Positions 4,471-10,110 of a DNA stretch of 64,000 nt are shown here, one piece after another (within the stretch, counting starts at the first letter, position 1; each line of letters opens with the position of its first letter). The position numbers and the translations under genes were made by a program. The notes beneath the pieces are model-generated. The model searched no databases. It had not been told where the DNA came from and saw only the letters and a program-made list of their open reading frames with translations. Origin of the DNA: Fulvivirga lutea (lineage in GTDB: Bacteria > Bacteroidota > Bacteroidia > Cytophagales > Cyclobacteriaceae). The stretch spans positions 1,221,488-1,285,487 of the forward strand of contig NZ_CP070608.1 in assembly GCF_017068455.1 (NCBI RefSeq), read 5' to 3'.

Positions 4471-4540
4471 CCTTCGACAGGCTCTGGATTACATACGCGC
4501 ATAATCCAGTTGCTACCCAGAATCCTTCGACAAGCTCAGG
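4471..4540. repeat. Two direct copies of a short dispersed repeat (CCTTCGACAAGCTCAGG type)
   Basis: A 17-mer of the CCTTCGACAAGCTCAGG type lies at 4524-4540, with a diverged copy (CCTTCGACAGGCTCTGG) at 4471-4487. Both have the orientation of the right-hand end of the GIY-YIG unit that follows. The 4524 copy is preceded by TACCCAGAAT, resembling the TACCC...TAAT stretch inside the right end at 4941-4974, so these are probably solo ends. I noticed this family nowhere else in the window. Confidence 0.75.
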
Positions 4541-4591
4541 GGTGCAATGACGTTTGTGTATTGATAAAAGAAAAGCAAGAGCACTGGCCAT

Positions 4592-4625
4592 CCTGAGCTT
4601 GTCGAAGGGTCAGCGGAGGGTAATT
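4592..4625 (+). repeat. Left terminal inverted repeat of the first GIY-YIG unit
   Basis: These 34 bp begin CCTGAGCTTGTCGAAGG and end GGAGGGTAATT. They match the reverse complement of 4941-4974 at 30 of 34 positions without gaps; the mismatches are at repeat positions 14, 18, 20 and 23. The GIY-YIG start codon is 11 bp beyond the inner edge. Confidence 0.85.
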
Positions 4626-4636
4626 TGGATAATTAA

Positions 4637-4933
4637 ATGAGCATTCTAAAAAACTATACGGTTTATATCCTTCAATGTGCAGATGACTCTTATTATGTTG
4701 GCATGACAAATGACATCGATAGGAGGCTAGCGGAACATCAACAAGGCTTAAATAGGGGCTATACTAACTCTAGGCGGCCGGTCAAATTAGTTTTCACCGA
4801 ACATTTTAGTGATGTTAATCATGCGTTTGAGTTTGAGAAGCAAATAAAAGGTTGGAGAAGAGCCAAAAAAGAAGCTTTAATTAAAGGAGAATGGGATTTG
4901 TTGCCTGAATTGTCTAAGGCTTATAAGAAATAG
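4637..4933 (+). CDS. Small GIY-YIG nuclease-superfamily protein (first copy)
   Basis: The 98-aa protein is essentially one GIY-YIG domain of the stand-alone (UvrC N-domain-like, COG2827) type. The GIY-like strand is TVYIL (8-12), the YIG-like strand YYVGMT (19-24), the helix Arg is at 29-30 with His34, and the metal-binding Glu67 lies in EKQIKG. Family members cut DNA through a single metal; the substrate of these small versions is unknown. The gene is enclosed by 34-bp inverted repeats (4592-4625 and 4941-4974), with start and stop 11 and 7 bp from them. A second copy at 9426-9725 shares the same motifs and sits in a comparable repeat frame, so this is probably a repeat-associated gene and not a housekeeping one. 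No operon partners are seen. Confidence 0.9.
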   Translation: MSILKNYTVYILQCADDSYYVGMTNDIDRRLAEHQQGLNRGYTNSRRPVKLVFTEHFSDVNHAFEFEKQIKGWRRAKKEALIKGEWDLLPELSKAYKK

Positions 4934-4940
4934 ACTGACT

Positions 4941-4974
4941 AATTACCCTCCCCTAATCCTCCGACAAGCTCAGG
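4941..4974 (-). repeat. Right terminal inverted repeat of the first GIY-YIG unit
   Basis: This is the inverted partner of 4592-4625. The inner edge AATTACCCTCC starts 7 bp after the GIY-YIG stop codon, and the outer edge is CCTCCGACAAGCTCAGG. With its partner it bounds a 383-bp unit. No target-site duplication is obvious outside the pair. Confidence 0.83.
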
Positions 4975-5012
4975 ATTGCTTACTTGGGTGTTATAAATAA
5001 AAAACGATTGTC

Positions 5013-5055
5013 ATGCCGGACTTCCTGCCCGTCCGGTCAGGCGGGGATCCGGCAT
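5013..5055. repeat. Palindromic intergenic repeat (REP-like hairpin)
   Basis: ATGCCGGA at 5013-5020 pairs perfectly with TCCGGCAT at 5048-5055. An inner GC-rich imperfect stem (CCTGCC against GGCGGG) is separated by GTCCGGTCA. The GC content is far above the surroundings, typical of a dispersed palindromic unit. The rest of the gap between the GIY-YIG unit and the next gene (5056-5174) shows no further structure. Confidence 0.65.
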
Positions 5056-5174
5056 CTCTACTTTCTACCATTTTTAGTAAAACCTTACATCTGTTTGATT
5101 ATCAGTGACTACGACTTAATCTATCGCTTTCCTTTCGCGTTACTTCCGTATTTAAGTATGAGAAAAGAAATCAA

Positions 5175-5672
5175 ATGATAAGAAGAGTTAGTACCGTTTT
5201 ATTTTCGCTGATCACTGTTATCGCAAGCGCTCAAACCTATGATCAGGATTTTACTGGTAAGGTGGTAAATGTAATAGATGGGAATACCATAGAGGTAGAG
5301 AATGAAAACGATGAGGTGATTAAATTCATACTAAGCGAGGTTGATTGCCCTGAGCCGGGTCAGACGTTAAGTGAAGAAGCCAAGGCATTTACTGAAGATT
5401 TAATTCTAAAGAAAAAAGTGCAAGTAGAGTTAAAAGGTAAAGATTGGTTGGGTAACCGACTTGCTGTCATCACATTAAAGAATGGTACGGTTTTACACGA
5501 AGAATTATTAAAAGAAGGCTTGGCTTGGGCTGATAGAAAAGCATCATCTACTTCAAGTAACCTTGAGGCTAGCGCCAAGGCCAAAAAAATAGGCTTATGG
5601 ACCGAAAACGAGCCTACACCGCCATGGATTTATCGCAGACAGCAAACCATGATGCAGGCCAAGAGCCGCTAG
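5175..5672 (+). CDS. Exported staphylococcal-nuclease-fold protein, probably degenerate
   Basis: The 165-aa protein has a Sec signal peptide (residues 1-20, cleavage near ASA-Q). It is followed by an SNase-type OB fold: FTGKVVNVIDGNTIEV, a CPE loop at 58-60, LGNRLAVI and KKIGLW. Active members (thermonuclease) hydrolyse DNA and RNA in the periplasm or outside the cell using two Arg and one Glu. Aligned by eye, the Glu is kept (E67/E68). The first Arg, expected two residues after the strand start before L-x-x-x-D-x-P-E, is Ile52, and the second, expected in YGR, is Asn94, with Arg95 beside it. The calcium-site Asp36 is present. It may therefore bind nucleic acid without cutting it well. ATG at 5175 directly precedes the signal peptide. 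Confidence 0.8.
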   Translation: MIRRVSTVLFSLITVIASAQTYDQDFTGKVVNVIDGNTIEVENENDEVIKFILSEVDCPEPGQTLSEEAKAFTEDLILKKKVQVELKGKDWLGNRLAVITLKNGTVLHEELLKEGLAWADRKASSTSSNLEASAKAKKIGLWTENEPTPPWIYRRQQTMMQAKSR

Positions 5673-5687
5673 TCTTTCACAATAAAA

Positions 5688-6095
5688 ATGGTATTTTCGA
5701 GTTACATGAATATGTTAACTCGATTTTTATTTATAATCTTTTCTTTCGTTTTGTTATCGTGCACCGCCACGTTGGCACAGTCTAAAGAGCCTAAAAATGA
5801 AAAGCGTGATAACTCTTTCGCACCGATGGAGGAGGAGCAGAGTGCTATCCAGAAAAAGGACATGAAGAAAAAAGGTAAGAAGTCTTACCGTGCCATGTTC
5901 AATAAAAAAATGGATAAAAAAATTCGAGAGTATGAAGCGCGAATGGAGGCTAATGCTATGGAAGATAAAAAGCAGCGCAGACTTATGAAGAAACCTCAAT
6001 ATTCAGATCCCATGTATTTTGGGCACAAGAAAAAGCCAAAAAAGCGACCGCCAGGCAAAAGAAAATTTTGTAAAGAATGCCACATCTGGCACTAA
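5688..6095 (+). CDS. Small Lys-rich putative lipoprotein, unknown function
   Basis: The longest frame is 135 aa; ATGs at 5706 or 5712 would give a tighter signal peptide. The leader ends in VLLSC, a good lipobox, although SPI cleavage after TLA-Q is an alternative. The mature part is strongly basic (KKMKKKGKK-like runs) and helical. It ends in a Cys-Lys-Glu-Cys-x-x-x-His tail after a PPGKRK stretch, which could bind metal or haem-like ligands, though this is speculative. I do not recognise the family. It follows the nuclease-fold gene by 15 bp on the same strand and may be co-transcribed with it. Confidence 0.6.
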   Translation: MVFSSYMNMLTRFLFIIFSFVLLSCTATLAQSKEPKNEKRDNSFAPMEEEQSAIQKKDMKKKGKKSYRAMFNKKMDKKIREYEARMEANAMEDKKQRRLMKKPQYSDPMYFGHKKKPKKRPPGKRKFCKECHIWH

Positions 6096-6214
6096 ATATT
6101 TTTTAGCCATGTTTTTGGCCCTATTATTTCATTAAATCGATTGCAGAAAACATAGCAGTAGTGTAAGGCTCATTTTCACCTGATTTTCACGTTTTCTTTT
6201 AGTAAATTGCTCTA

Positions 6215-6874
6215 ATGAATAATCTCAATCGTTTCATTGAGCACACCAATTTAAAGCCTACAATCACAGGCAAAGATGTCGATACGCTTATTAAAGAAGC
6301 CAAAGAATTTGGTTTTGTGGGTGCATGTGTACCACCGTTTTGGGTGAAGCGTGCCAGTCGCGAAATTGGTGATGCCGATGTGCAATTAGTTACAGTTATT
6401 GGGTTTCCGTTGGGTTACAATATGACAGAAACCAAAGTGGAAGAAATGAAACTGGCCATGAGAGATGGTGCTGACGAGTTGGATTTAGTGATGAATGTAT
6501 CGGCAATAAAGGATGGGATGCCCTGGCCGAAAATTGAATTTGCCAAGTGTAGCAAATTGGCTCATGAAGAAGGTAAAATACTCAAGGTAATTATTGAAAC
6601 GGCCTATTTGAATGATGACGAAATCAAGATCGCTTGTAAGCTTTGTGCTGATGCAGGTGTCGATTATGTGAAAACATCTACAGGATTTGCTGGAGAAGGT
6701 GCAAAAGAAGATCACGTTAAATTAATGCGTAGTGTTTTGCCTTCCAGCGTAGGCATTAAAGCTTCTGGGGGTATAAAAACGCTGGATCAAACCCTTGCCC
6801 TTATCAAAGCAGGTGCAGATCGAATTGGCACATCGAGCGGTGTGGACATTATGCAAGAATTAAAAAACAACTAA
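6215..6874 (+). CDS. deoC: Deoxyribose-phosphate aldolase
   Basis: The 219-aa class I aldolase cleaves 2-deoxyribose 5-phosphate to glyceraldehyde 3-phosphate and acetaldehyde in deoxynucleoside breakdown. The TIM-barrel signatures are complete: FIEHTNLKP at the N-terminus, TVIGFPLG, DELDLVMN with Asp90, the Schiff-base Lys153 in YVKTSTGF, and Lys182 in IKASGGI. Length and ends fit the family. The stop overlaps the start of the aldehyde dehydrogenase gene (TAATG), so translation is probably coupled, and that partner could oxidise one of the two aldehyde products. The 119 bp upstream hold no clear promoter. Confidence 0.95.
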   Translation: MNNLNRFIEHTNLKPTITGKDVDTLIKEAKEFGFVGACVPPFWVKRASREIGDADVQLVTVIGFPLGYNMTETKVEEMKLAMRDGADELDLVMNVSAIKDGMPWPKIEFAKCSKLAHEEGKILKVIIETAYLNDDEIKIACKLCADAGVDYVKTSTGFAGEGAKEDHVKLMRSVLPSSVGIKASGGIKTLDQTLALIKAGADRIGTSSGVDIMQELKNN

Positions 6875-8490
6875 TGAATACTTTAGAATCAATTTTTAAA
6901 TCAGAATCTGAAATTCCATCGGAGTTTCTTCCTGAGAAGAATATTGTGCAGAGAGAATATCTTGTTAATGGCAAGCTCCTTACCTGGGATGGTCCATTAA
7001 ATGAGGTAAAGAGCCCAGTGTTTGTCAAAGAGTCTGATGGATTAAAGCAGAGGGTTTTAGGTTCTACACCATTACTTACCGAAAATGAATCATTGCAAGC
7101 TCTGGATGCTGCCGTAAAAGCTTATGATTTAGGACATGGTGCATGGCCTACCATGTCGGTAGCTGCCAGAATAGCTCATGTTCAGACCTTTCTTAAAAAA
7201 ATGAAGGAAAAGCGTGATGAGGTGGTTAACCTTTTAATGTGGGAGATAGGCAAAAACCTGAAAGACTCACAAAAAGAATTTGACCGTACCTGCGACTACA
7301 TGCACGATACTATTGAGGGCTTGAAGGAGCTGGATCGCAAGTCTTCAAGTTTTGAAGTAGAGCAGGGAATTATAGGACAAATTAGAAGAGTGCCTCTTGG
7401 TGTCGCTTTATGTATGGGGCCATACAACTATCCATTAAATGAGACCTTCACTACGCTAATTCCTGCTTTGATAATGGGAAATACTGTAGTATTTAAGCCT
7501 GCAAAGTTCGGTGTGTTGTTGATCAAACCTTTACTAGAGGCGTTTAAAGATAGTTTTCCTCCTGGGGTAATCAACATTATTTATGGTAGAGGTAGAGATA
7601 CAGTAGGTGCTTTGATGGCATCCGGAAAGATTGATGTATTAGCCTTTATTGGTACTAACAAAGGAGCGAATGACCTTAAAAGATTGCACCCAAAACCACA
7701 TAGACTAAGATCAGTTTTAGGTCTTGATGCTAAAAACCCAGGTATAGTATTGAAGGATGCTGATATTGATGTGGCTGTTGATGAATGCATTGCGGGATCA
7801 TTATCTTTTAATGGACAACGTTGTACAGCATTGAAGTTGATTTTTGTACACTCCAGTATTGTTGATGAGTTTAATAAAAAGTTTGTTGCTAAGGTATCTG
7901 AGTTAAAAGCCGGGCTTCCTTGGGAAGATGGAGTTTCTCTTACTCCATTACCAGAGCCCGGTAAAGTTGATTATTTGAAAGATTTAGTCGAAGATGCAGG
8001 AAACCATGGTGCCAGTATCATCAACGAAGGTGGAGGAGAATCAAATGAGACCTTTTTCTTTCCTGCTGTTTTGTATCCTGTGAACTCAAAAATGAAAGTT
8101 TATAATGAGGAACAGTTTGGTCCTGTAGTGCCAATCGTTCCTTTTGACGATGAGAAGGAAGCGATAAACTATGTCGTGAATTCAAACTTTGGTCAGCAAC
8201 TGAGTATATTCAGTCAAGATTCTAAATCTATAGGGCGCATGGTCGATTTGTTTGCCAATCAAGTAGGTAGGATTAACATCAATGCACAATGTCAGCGCGG
8301 GCCGGATACTTTTCCATTTAATGGAAGAAAGGATTCAGCAGAAGGAACACTTTCAGTTTCAGATGCATTGAGAGCTTTTAGTATAAGAATAATTGTGGCT
8401 GCTAAGTATAATGATCCAAACAAAAAGATTATTAATGATATTGTAAGTAATGGCGAGTCTGCGTTTTTGACTAGGGATTATATATTTTAG
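6874..8490 (+). CDS. GapN-like (ALDH11-type) aldehyde dehydrogenase
   Basis: This is a 538-aa ALDH-superfamily protein, closest in motifs to non-phosphorylating NADP glyceraldehyde-3-phosphate dehydrogenase: GPYNYPLNE with the oxyanion Asn185, FIGTNKG, NGQRC with nucleophile Cys317, and RGPDTFPFNGRKDS near the C-terminus. Such enzymes oxidise glyceraldehyde 3-phosphate directly to 3-phosphoglycerate. One anomaly stands out: where the family has ELGGK, this protein reads GLDAK (283-287), so the usual general-base Glu is Gly283. Translational coupling to deoC suggests its substrate is one of the aldolase products; acetaldehyde is the alternative. The start ATG overlaps the deoC stop by one base. 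Confidence 0.88.
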   Translation: MNTLESIFKSESEIPSEFLPEKNIVQREYLVNGKLLTWDGPLNEVKSPVFVKESDGLKQRVLGSTPLLTENESLQALDAAVKAYDLGHGAWPTMSVAARIAHVQTFLKKMKEKRDEVVNLLMWEIGKNLKDSQKEFDRTCDYMHDTIEGLKELDRKSSSFEVEQGIIGQIRRVPLGVALCMGPYNYPLNETFTTLIPALIMGNTVVFKPAKFGVLLIKPLLEAFKDSFPPGVINIIYGRGRDTVGALMASGKIDVLAFIGTNKGANDLKRLHPKPHRLRSVLGLDAKNPGIVLKDADIDVAVDECIAGSLSFNGQRCTALKLIFVHSSIVDEFNKKFVAKVSELKAGLPWEDGVSLTPLPEPGKVDYLKDLVEDAGNHGASIINEGGGESNETFFFPAVLYPVNSKMKVYNEEQFGPVVPIVPFDDEKEAINYVVNSNFGQQLSIFSQDSKSIGRMVDLFANQVGRININAQCQRGPDTFPFNGRKDSAEGTLSVSDALRAFSIRIIVAAKYNDPNKKIINDIVSNGESAFLTRDYIF

Positions 8491-8493
8491 TAT

Positions 8494-8922
8494 ATGAAAT
8501 TTATTATTTCCGGTCTATTGCTAGTGTCATTATGGGGTCTCTATTCATGCTGTGCCAACGATGACTGTGGGGGAAATGAGTTATACTTATCTCTTCGATT
8601 TGAAGATGCCAACGGAAATAACTTGATCGCTGACAGCACCCTGAGTCCCGATTCGATTAATGTTTTAAATATATACGAAACATCACAGAGTCAATCCCCA
8701 ATAGGTTATGTTGATGAAGAGTCTAATGTTTTGATCAATTTATTATTTTCTACAGATAGTATAAAAATCATCATAGAGGATAAAGTAGTAGGGAATTTTA
8801 ATGTTGACCTTACTAATTATCGAGACAAAGGTTGTTGTGATGAATACGAAAATTTTAATGTCTATTACGACAATGAATTTTGTGGAGATTGTAGAGGAAC
8901 ACCTATCGTAATCACATTATGA
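8494..8922 (+). CDS. Hypothetical lipoprotein with Cys-rich mature region
   Basis: The 142-aa protein has a lipoprotein signal ending in GLYSC (Cys19, next to Cys20). The mature part contains further cysteines (NDDCGG, GCCDE, FCGDC) that could form disulfides, and an IYETSQSQ-type beta-rich region. I do not recognise the family. It starts 3 bp after the aldehyde dehydrogenase and overlaps acylphosphatase by 4 bp (ATGA), so it belongs to the same transcript. Confidence 0.75.
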   Translation: MKFIISGLLLVSLWGLYSCCANDDCGGNELYLSLRFEDANGNNLIADSTLSPDSINVLNIYETSQSQSPIGYVDEESNVLINLLFSTDSIKIIIEDKVVGNFNVDLTNYRDKGCCDEYENFNVYYDNEFCGDCRGTPIVITL

Positions 8923-9191
8923 TTAAACACTTCAATATCACAGTTTCTGGCAAAGTACAAGGCGTTTTTTACCGTGCTTCCACCAAACATAAGGCTGAGG
9001 ATTTAGGCATTGTGGGCTTTGTGAAAAATATGCCTGATGGCTCTGTATATATAGAAGCCGAAGGTAAAATGGAGCAGTTGAGCAGCTTAATTGACTGGTG
9101 TAAAATAGGTCCAACCCACGCCAGAGTAGAAAATGTTCATTTTGTGCCAGGAGATGTGATGGATTTTACAGGGTTTGATATTAGGTATTAA
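8919..9191 (+). CDS. acyP: Acylphosphatase
   Basis: The 90-aa enzyme hydrolyses acyl phosphates such as acetyl phosphate or 1,3-bisphosphoglycerate. The catalytic Arg19 lies in GKVQGVFYRAS, and Asn37 in GFVKNMPDG. Length and the C-terminal GFDIRY strand are standard. It overlaps the preceding lipoprotein gene by ATGA and ends the deoC transcript before the repeat cluster. It may deal with acyl-phosphate side products of the neighbouring aldehyde metabolism, but that is only contextual. Confidence 0.95.
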   Translation: MIKHFNITVSGKVQGVFYRASTKHKAEDLGIVGFVKNMPDGSVYIEAEGKMEQLSSLIDWCKIGPTHARVENVHFVPGDVMDFTGFDIRY

Positions 9192-9195
9192 GTAT

Positions 9196-9374
9196 CGTCA
9201 CTGCGAGGACGGAGGACGAAGCAGTCTCTTGCCAATTGCTAGGAAACTTCATTTAACTAATTATTTCCTTCTCTAAAGTAACAGGATAACAACTCTAATT
9301 TAAAGTCTTTTTTCAAAGCATGTCCAACTTACTAATATAAAGATTACTTCAGTCGTGCCTCCTTCGCAATGACG
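9196..9374. repeat. Gene-less inverted-repeat unit of the second repeat family
   Basis: The left end at 9196-9228 (33 bp, starting CGTCACTGCGAGGACGGAGG) is identical to the left end at 9390-9422. The right end at 9342-9374 (GATTACTTCAGTCG...TTCGCAATGACG) is its imperfect inverse. Between them lie 113 bp of AT-rich sequence without a reading frame. The unit looks like a MITE- or REPIN-style derivative of the adjacent GIY-YIG unit. Together with that unit it fills the whole gap between acyP and the minus-strand genes. Confidence 0.75.
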
Positions 9375-9389
9375 AAACTAACTTATATT

Positions 9390-9428
9390 CGTCACTGCGA
9401 GGACGGAGGACGAAGCAGTCTCAAACTA
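9390..9428 (+). repeat. Left terminal inverted repeat of the second GIY-YIG unit
   Basis: A 33-bp core (9390-9422) is identical to 9196-9228. The extension CAAACTA brings the match with the opposite end to 39 bp. The reverse-strand stop codon of the GIY-YIG gene (9426-9428) lies inside this extension. Confidence 0.82.
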
Positions 9429-9725
9429 CCAACTTGCTACTTCATCAAAAAGATCTCTCCAATCTGGATTTGATGAATCGATTAAATCAACCTTCTTTTT
9501 ACGAGAACCTCCTTTTAATTGCTTTTCTCGATCGATAGCCTCTTCTATAGAATGAAAAGACTCAAAATAGACAAGCTTATTTAAGTTATATCTTGATGTA
9601 AAGCTCGTAGAGTATTTCTTTTCTTTGTGCTCGATTAATCTAGAATACAAATCAGAAGTCACACCTACATACAATGTGGTATTGTTCATATTGGTAAGAA
9701 TGTAGATACTGCCTCCTTTAGTCAT
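9426..9725 (-). CDS. Small GIY-YIG nuclease-superfamily protein (second copy)
   Basis: The 99-aa stand-alone GIY-YIG domain has SIYIL (6-10), LYVGVT (18-23), Arg29, His33 and catalytic-type Glu67 in EKQLKG, followed by a basic SRKKK segment. It is a diverged paralogue of the protein at 4637-4933: YIL, YVG-T, RL-EH, KLV, EKQ-KG and the final Leu-Ile align by eye. The gene fills a 388-bp unit bounded by imperfect inverted repeats (9390-9428 and 9736-9777). The start is 10 bp from the inner edge of one and the stop lies inside the other. DNA cleavage is likely from the family; the target and role are unknown. Confidence 0.9.
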   Translation of the reverse strand: MTKGGSIYILTNMNNTTLYVGVTSDLYSRLIEHKEKKYSTSFTSRYNLNKLVYFESFHSIEEAIDREKQLKGGSRKKKVDLIDSSNPDWRDLFDEVASW

Positions 9726-9735
9726 TTTGCATAAT

Positions 9736-9777
9736 TAGTTAAAGATTGCTTCAGTCGTTACCTCCTTCGCAATGACG
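9736..9777 (-). repeat. Right terminal inverted repeat of the second GIY-YIG unit
   Basis: Read on the minus strand it starts CGTCATTGCGAAGGAGG and ends GAAGCAATCTTTAACTA. It matches 9390-9428 apart from a few gaps and substitutions. It lies 10 bp upstream of the start codon of the minus-strand GIY-YIG gene and may carry its promoter. Confidence 0.8.
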
Positions 9778-10078: not shown

Positions 10079-10110
10079 GATTACTTCGTCCTTTCGTCCT
10101 CGTAATGACG
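10079..10110 (-). repeat. Solo right-end copy of the second repeat family
   Basis: GATTACTTCGTCC...CCTCGTAATGACG has the same orientation as the right ends at 9342-9374 and 9744-9777. No left partner is present on its far side, where the decarboxylase gene ends 22 bp away. Confidence 0.65.

Follow-up and report, generated by a model that had tools for sequence, protein, structure and literature searches.

Two small GIY-YIG nuclease genes lie 4.5 kb apart in a 64,000-nucleotide stretch of the Fulvivirga lutea genome (contig NZ_CP070608.1, positions 1,221,488 to 1,285,487; hereafter the window), and each locus is probably a minimal unit, in which the gene stands between hairpin repeats that its nuclease subfamily recognizes and may travel with these repeats as selfish DNA. 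Gene and repeat are physically linked, the repeats follow a common format, and the repeat type is tied to the nuclease subfamily.

Two Units of Common Design

The first unit measures 383 bp from repeat core to repeat core (4592-4974) and encodes nuclease 1, a single-domain protein of 98 amino acids and of the S type (4637..4933, plus strand; Pfam GIY-YIG, 2e-19). Its upstream arm is the S-type repeat CCTGAGCTTGTCGAAGG (4592..4608, plus strand) and its downstream arm a copy with one mismatch (4958..4974, minus strand), the wider inverted arms (4587-4625 and 4941-4979) being 87% complementary. The second unit, of 388 bp (9390-9777), encodes nuclease 2, likewise a single-domain protein, of 99 amino acids and of the Q type (9426..9725, minus strand; Pfam GIY-YIG, 8.1e-16), and is bounded by Q-type repeats at 9390..9421 (plus strand) and 9743..9777 (minus strand; hairpin at 9744-9776). 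The two proteins are 34% identical, and their start codons lie 11 bp (nuclease 1) and 10 bp (nuclease 2) inside the arms, which bears out the description, given in a first-pass annotation of the window, of two paralogues sharing one design.

The proteins score 70.1 and 58.5 bits against PF01541, with a gathering cut-off of 22.6, and at an E value of 0.001 GIY-YIG and T5orf172 were their only Pfam matches, with no HUH tyrosine transposase among them. GIY-YIG nucleases depend for catalysis on Tyr, Tyr-x-Gly, Arg and Glu residues, and such residues are almost invariant across 173 aligned small GIY-YIG proteins (Y9 99%, Y20 100%, G22 99%, R30 99% and E68 99%, in the numbering of nuclease 2 preceded by one extra residue), beside a conserved His and Lys. 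The closest solved structures by sequence belong to the UPF0213 proteins BH0048 (1zg2; 1.9e-08) and EF2693 (1ywl; 0.0033), and the relatives of nuclease 1 fetched from other genomes of the phylum are 49-61% identical to it.

Across the F. lutea genome (one contig of 4,137,993 bases, 4.14 Mb), the S-type sequence CCTTCGACAAGCTCAGG occurs with at most one mismatch at three sites, none of them more than 115 bp from the nuclease 1 gene, and at two mismatches one more site appears beside nuclease 1 and three elsewhere. The 32-nt repeat 2 occurs with at most three mismatches at two sites, both at nuclease 2, and the reversed patterns of both repeats, used as a control, had no match in the whole genome. 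The short S core TGAGCN{2,3}GTCGAAG has six genomic copies, four of them away from nuclease 1, and the short Q core GTCAYTGCGAGG also six, four of them away from nuclease 2. The earlier claim that each repeat is found only beside its own nuclease thus stands for near-exact copies and fails for the short cores. Chance pairing of nuclease and repeat is ruled out by these genome-wide counts together with the far-flank controls given below. With the S and Q types 4.5 kb apart and few other copies in the genome, the window offers a useful pair.

Repeat Type Follows Nuclease Subfamily

Homologues were sought in 98 genomes of the order, with matches in 42, and twice in 296 genomes of the phylum, with matches in 103 and 126; 98 genes from loci L001-L137, minus seven duplicates, passed the strong cut. 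Around these genes the S motif was counted 77 times within 250 bp and nine times beyond 600 bp (29-fold per kb), and the Q motif 70 and seven times (34-fold per kb). The nuclease-1-like set (L079-L107, 29 loci) carries an S repeat at 21/29 loci and a Q repeat at none, and the nuclease-2-like set (L110-L137 without duplicates and one gene below the cut, 24 loci) a Q repeat at 16/24 and an S repeat at none. Six genomes (F. lutea itself, G000, and G144, G197, G235, G298 and G352) possess both nucleases, each adjoining its own repeat.

On a tree of the 173 proteins, built from 99 alignment columns and with many open forks, only two changes between S and Q are needed for 120 labelled rows, compared with a mean of 23.2 and a minimum of 20 in 200 shuffles. 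Restriction to L001-L137 again gives two changes (54 rows; shuffled mean 18.1, minimum 12), and a three-way division into S, Q and other repeats gives 16 (148 rows; shuffled mean 48.5, minimum 44). A single 32-row clade, with a support of 100 in the Shimodaira-Hasegawa-like approximate likelihood ratio test (SH-aLRT) by a quick method, holds 24 S, no Q, two other and six unlabelled rows. The linkage of subfamily and repeat that had been proposed beforehand for survey in Bacteroidota was thus found, and each of the two subfamilies is statistically tied to its own repeat. A generic inverted-repeat test, noisier than the motif tests, reached a score of at least 12 at 38 of 81 genes, as against 3 of 94 control open reading frames (ORFs) and 67 of 2000 mismatched flank pairs.

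Within the proteins, 21 alignment columns separate S from Q members (24 S rows, L033 excluded), including N13/C, Y47/R, L49/P, N87/F or W, and W90/L. These columns are candidate determinants of specificity, confounded with descent.

A Common Hairpin Format

The two window repeats had been described as having no sequence in common. Their letters do differ, but as judged from sequence the repeats are variants of one hairpin format, GTC-stem-GA...GA-stem-C, whose full layout runs from (C/T)GTC through a stem beginning with A, a GA step, the loop and a second GA or GAA to the other stem arm and a closing C. Hairpins with the GTC tag number 130 within 250 bp of the 98 strong homologues and 25 beyond 600 bp, 16.8-fold denser per length, and are present at 47/98 loci by a strict grammar. 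Control tags were enriched 1.3-fold (CTG), 2.1-fold (GAC), 1.2-fold (GTAG), 3.9-fold (TCG) and 9.2-fold (CAG); the rises of CAG and TCG come from the same repeats, since 34/37 CAG and 16/18 TCG hairpins coincide at least in part with a GTC hairpin or with an S or Q core.

The base before GTC is C in 43% and T in 44% of 454 near-nuclease hairpins, and the A that follows belongs to the grammar and is hence not independent evidence. The stem measures 5 bp in 245/247 Q-stem and 96/120 other-stem hairpins near nucleases (341/367 together), with loops longer than 4-5 nt. GA steps stand above the stem on both sides in 185/247 Q-stem and 78/120 other-stem hairpins near nucleases, as compared with 8/16 and 13/39 far from them.

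Distribution Across Phyla and Genomes

A scan of public genomes with nuclease-2-type proteins, in which loci were picked by protein alone, extends the pairing well beyond the phylum. Its best 80 loci, with proteins 60-76% identical, include representatives of Cyanobacteria, Chloroflexi, Nitrospirae, WOR-3, Patescibacteria-type candidates, Omnitrophota, proteobacteria, Spirochaetes, Planctomycetes and others. A total of 81 genes were read in 78 of them. A Q core lies within 250 bp of 70 genes, a GTC hairpin accompanies 74, hairpins stand on either side of 56, and S cores occur at two; the Q cores number 217 in 42.4 kb of near and 26 in 88.6 kb of far sequence. The suggestion that the association could be general is upheld by its occurrence over so many phyla.

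Relatives were also found in 32 plasmid records. Ten of the 15 matches listed were picked for host variety before their flanks were seen, and nine of the ten carry a hairpin of GTC format within 300 bp, in Neisseria gonorrhoeae, Sinorhizobium meliloti, Azospirillum lipoferum, Rhizobium, Shinella, Neorhizobium, Spirosoma, Photobacterium and Planktothrix; no such hairpin was seen within 300 bp at the locus of Sinorhizobium sp. K101. The Neisseria locus (L273, NZ_CP119140.1) relates to two N. gonorrhoeae plasmid records of about 2.17 Mb in PLSDB, a chromosome-like size. In A. lipoferum (L275) the nuclease unit is placed between sufB and sufC of the suf operon, and in Planktothrix (L281) between an MmeI-type restriction enzyme and the DISARM gene drmA.

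Each short core has six copies in F. lutea and up to 578 (Q) and 216 (S) in other genomes, and in the 296 genomes high copy numbers are more frequent where the matching nuclease is present, in counts not adjusted for descent. At least three Q copies are carried by 25/32 genomes with a strong Q nuclease and by 42/264 without (odds 18.9), compared with 14/47 and 53/249 for genomes with and without a strong S nuclease (odds 1.6, p 0.14). At least ten S copies are carried by 25/47 genomes with a strong S nuclease and by 33/249 without (odds 7.4); the S pattern is less clean at this level, since the cross test with the Q nuclease gives 11/32 against 47/264 (odds 2.4, p 0.028).

A Proposed Mode of Action

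The repeat would consist of an unpaired GTC tag, a type-specific stem of about 5 bp, topped by GA on its 5' arm and by GA or GAA on its 3' arm, a free loop and a closing C, its type being read from the stem in the Q type or from the GAGC..GTCGA core in the S type. We infer, with good support, that each nuclease binds its own repeat. Less firmly, it may cut or nick close to the repeat in DNA that has become single-stranded or has folded. That it acts on folded single strands is suggested by the strand-specific tag and by the opposed GA steps, whose pairing as tandem sheared G-A pairs would require a folded strand; folding energies do not by themselves demonstrate such action. If the break were then repaired from another copy, repeats, and at times the nuclease unit, would be maintained, copied or exchanged, and the two would travel together as selfish DNA. 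Active spreading of the repeats by the nuclease, the weakest element of this scheme, might be one outcome.

Several observations weigh against the scheme or temper the evidence for it. Under the strict grammar 51/98 strong loci lack a hairpin, the grammar was fixed after the data had been seen, and the pairing of the stems is not independent evidence because a paired stem is itself a selection criterion. Folding of single repeats as DNA gave a z score of -4.3 in one of six cases and of -1.6 to +0.7 in the other five, and since such folding is mostly weak, a stable hairpin is unsupported for the S and Q types. The p-values overstate independence because genomes and loci are related by descent, and 25/173 genes had no repeat label and were left out of the tree counts. 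In Neisseria and Photobacterium nearness to the nuclease says little, since hairpins run through the whole stretch read. Copy number and nuclease also part company in some genomes. One genome of the same class (G099, 3.9 Mb) holds 578 copies of GTCAYTGCGAGG and 216 of TGAGCN{2,3}GTCGAAG (794 in all) with no close partner nuclease, its only GIY-YIG match being a distant one inside a 460-aa frame, and another (G290) holds ten Q copies with no nuclease match. At the first search thresholds, no Q-like match was obtained in five genomes with at least ten Q copies, nor an S-like one in 13 with at least 20 S copies, and 5/32 genomes with a strong Q nuclease carry fewer than two exact Q copies.

Movement, Loss and Alternative Explanations

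Movement was examined in 94 nuclease pairs of at least 72% identity. Of these, 19 share a gene context; the flanks of 63 are unrelated on either side, and those of 12 are too short. Where the context is unrelated and both members are labelled, the repeat class is kept in 52/57 pairs. A closer comparison was afforded by the murG-murC interval in one genus, for which 40 genomes matched and 30 loci were read. Here the nuclease is present in L243, L245 and L262, L244 retains a repeat dimer alone, L247 has a single repeat in the same place, and further loci show no repeat, another type of dimer or different inserted DNA. In the pairs L243/L244 and L245/L247 one locus has the unit and the other lacks it, between direct repeat copies. 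Since L262 is occupied at 90% MurC identity and the nearer relatives L246, L248 and L249 (97-99%) are empty and have no repeat either, recombinational loss is no less likely than gain, and the state of the unit here could reflect loss between direct repeats as readily as gain. At the same interval a repeat dimer with the stem ATTCT is present or absent among species of one genus (L250, L251, L261 and L270 compared with L253 and L255-L257), and no obvious target duplication was seen at these loci.

A role in genome policing, which is compatible with the selfish unit and not opposed to it, is a tentative possibility. The nuclease would cut incoming or replicating single-stranded DNA at repeats that act as tags tuning transformation and recombination, and the unit would be kept as useful. 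Consistent with this, the N. gonorrhoeae homologue, 46% identical to nuclease 2, resides in a dense array of GTCATTCCC...GGGAATC (ATTCCC...GGGAAT) hairpins, nuclease 2 had no match in 50,697 phage records at an E value of 1e-8, and the catalytic-looking residues are kept in the 173 proteins; the wide scatter over phyla and the unrelated contexts are more like those of a mobile element.

Homing, in which the nuclease cuts a gene-free repeat or repeat dimer and is then copied in from an occupied site, is rather doubtful. The sites at L244 and L247 would be the expected empty counterparts of the occupied L243 and L245, and nuclease 2 has a weak match to a homing endonuclease model in PADLOC (E 0.0065), a database that gave weak matches only; a match to TIGR01453 (26.3 bits) lies below its cut-off of 56.05. 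Against homing, the occupied L262 among nearer relatives that lack even the repeat suggests old presence followed by repeated loss.

It is unlikely that the repeats are the terminal inverted repeats of a true transposon, with the GIY-YIG protein as the transposase of a unit of about 390 bp and of short non-autonomous repeat dimers. Units of this size bounded by inverted repeats would fit, as would dimers that some sister species have and others lack at one locus, and the 87%-identical nuclease copies L045 and L050, found in different contexts of one genome. However, no target-site duplication was seen, solo repeats exist, presence and absence also fit deletion between direct copies, and the orientation of the hairpins around the gene varies over the 94 loci that have them on both sides (+/- 49, -/- 19, -/+ 16 and +/+ 10). 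Passive linkage, by which genes that settled long ago in repeat-rich intergenic DNA were inherited or transferred with their neighbourhood and without recognition, would explain the 19/94 pairs in a common context but is highly improbable given the 63/94 pairs in unrelated contexts, of which 52/57 labelled ones keep their repeat class, the roughly 30-fold drop in S and Q density beyond 600 bp and the six genomes in which the two nucleases have no repeat type in common.

Other Repeats and GIY-YIG Genes

Around unit 1, an exact S core was located by the genome-wide pattern search at 4524..4540 (minus strand), and a degenerate copy with two mismatches to CCTTCGACAAGCTCAGG at 4471..4487 (minus strand; S core at 4474). 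Near unit 2, a Q-type repeat CGTCACTGCGAGG...CGAAGCAGTCT occupies 9196..9227 (plus strand), faced by an imperfect one, read by eye, at 9344..9378 (minus strand; Q core at 9364), and a related hairpin with the stem ATTAC is found at 10079..10109 (minus strand). A short ORF adjoining nuclease 1 (5175-5672) looks thermonuclease-like by eye, and the relatives found for the acylphosphatase neighbour of nuclease 2, used as a lead to an empty site there, reach at most 61% protein identity. A phage origin was set aside, nuclease 2 having no match among the 50,697 phage records at an E value of 1e-8 and nuclease 1 a single weak PHROG match.

The F. lutea genome has seven GIY-YIG matches, nucleases 1 and 2 and five others. 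The small gene L002 is flanked by a third repeat type (GTCATTGCGGACTTGATCCGCAATC and GTCATGCCGGACTTGATCCGGCATC), also represented near nuclease 1 by a CGTC-format hairpin with the stem ATGCC (5010..5056, plus strand), whose loop is split by a second palindrome, CCTGCCCGTCCGGTCAGGCGGG. The small gene L004 lies downstream of a fourth type (GTCATGCCGACAGAGGAGGCATC and GTCATCCTGACGAAGGAAGGATC). L005 is a weak match of another type without an S core, its surroundings offering one chance-like hairpin with a long loop and a distant Q core; a perfect palindrome at its positions 1407-1426, GTCCCGATAGCTATCGGGAC, does not have the layout of the GTC hairpin repeats. The two remaining matches lie in large open frames of 605 and 458 aa.

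Another GIY-YIG type is often found directly downstream of tRNA genes. A tRNA ends within 200 bp upstream of 14/37 weaker GIY-YIG ORF matches (29 loci), as compared with 0/98 strong ones, examples being L077 (G035:C2:234372-235274), L070 and G078:C1:2899253-2900425. Some of these matches form tandem arrays with units of about 320-345 bp; that of L077 (3.2 copies, 97% matches) contains an apparent tRNA 3' end.

Comparison with Known Systems

The first-pass annotation had proposed an undescribed system, a description that does not suit the repeats, which apparently fit the CGTC superfamily of repetitive extragenic palindromic (REP) sequences described in 2013. According to the available text of that survey, CGTC REPs occur in Bacteroidetes, alphaproteobacteria, Neisseria and others, have an unpaired CGTC or TGTC tag, AT at the stem base, a short tail, stems of 8-9 bp and loops of 4-5 nt, and include the Neisseria family CGTC-1, which is equated with dRS3 (Di Nocera et al. 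2013, PMC3733652). The likeness lies in the unpaired (C/T)GTC tag and the stem opening with A/T pairs, whereas many repeats here differ in their 5-bp stem, opposed GA steps and longer loops; the rhizobial and Neisseria hairpins fit the 8-9 bp stem and 4-5 nt loop by eye. The same text reports no associated transposase gene for these widespread short intergenic repeats, and so leaves them without a partner enzyme (PMC3733652). A bolder reading, put forward tentatively and with more doubt than confidence, is that the dedicated enzymes which the CGTC REP superfamily lacks would, for the superfamily as a whole and across Bacteria, be small GIY-YIG nucleases. Each nuclease subfamily would read a folded single strand by its GTC tag, subfamily-specific stem and opposed GA steps, cut it, and so mobilize or copy its REPs and its own gene. 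The one-to-one pairing of nuclease and repeat makes the origin of CGTC REPs testable with proteins of about 100 amino acids and 30-nt oligonucleotides, and provides many natural nuclease/target pairs from which the reading of a folded strand by a one-domain nuclease could be learned. Among the literature matches listed, searched by titles and abstract starts, none ties GIY-YIG genes to REPs, names these nucleases as CGTC REP partners, or has several nuclease types per genome with their own REPs or a presence/absence unit.

In the bolder reading the system would be a separately evolved counterpart of the REP-associated tyrosine transposases (RAYTs) and their GTAG REPs, which, in the available text of the survey, form REPtrons with several enzyme and repeat types per genome (PMC3733652). 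The parallel, drawn already in the first-pass annotation, is right as an analogy, in that the repeat which an enzyme presumably handles flanks its gene; RAYTs, however, are HUH tyrosine enzymes and the nucleases here are of the GIY-YIG family. RAYT-type REPs themselves were dismissed as an identity for the window repeats, GTAG-tag hairpins not being enriched (1.2-fold). To the UPF0213 proteins of known structure the likeness is one of GIY-YIG sequence similarity.

The nearest relative may be the Ssn family, the subject of a Nat Commun paper of 2025, which is said to be a GIY-YIG family specific for single strands. The N. meningitidis enzyme reportedly acts at the NTS repeat, with thousands of homologues that have cognate sequences, and Ssn and NTS are reported to have a genome-policing role in Neisseria, tuning transformation and recombination. 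The likeness, on this account, is that of a small GIY-YIG nuclease with a cognate dispersed repeat near its gene, and if the account holds, the central idea has been published before and the two window genes are new members of the family.

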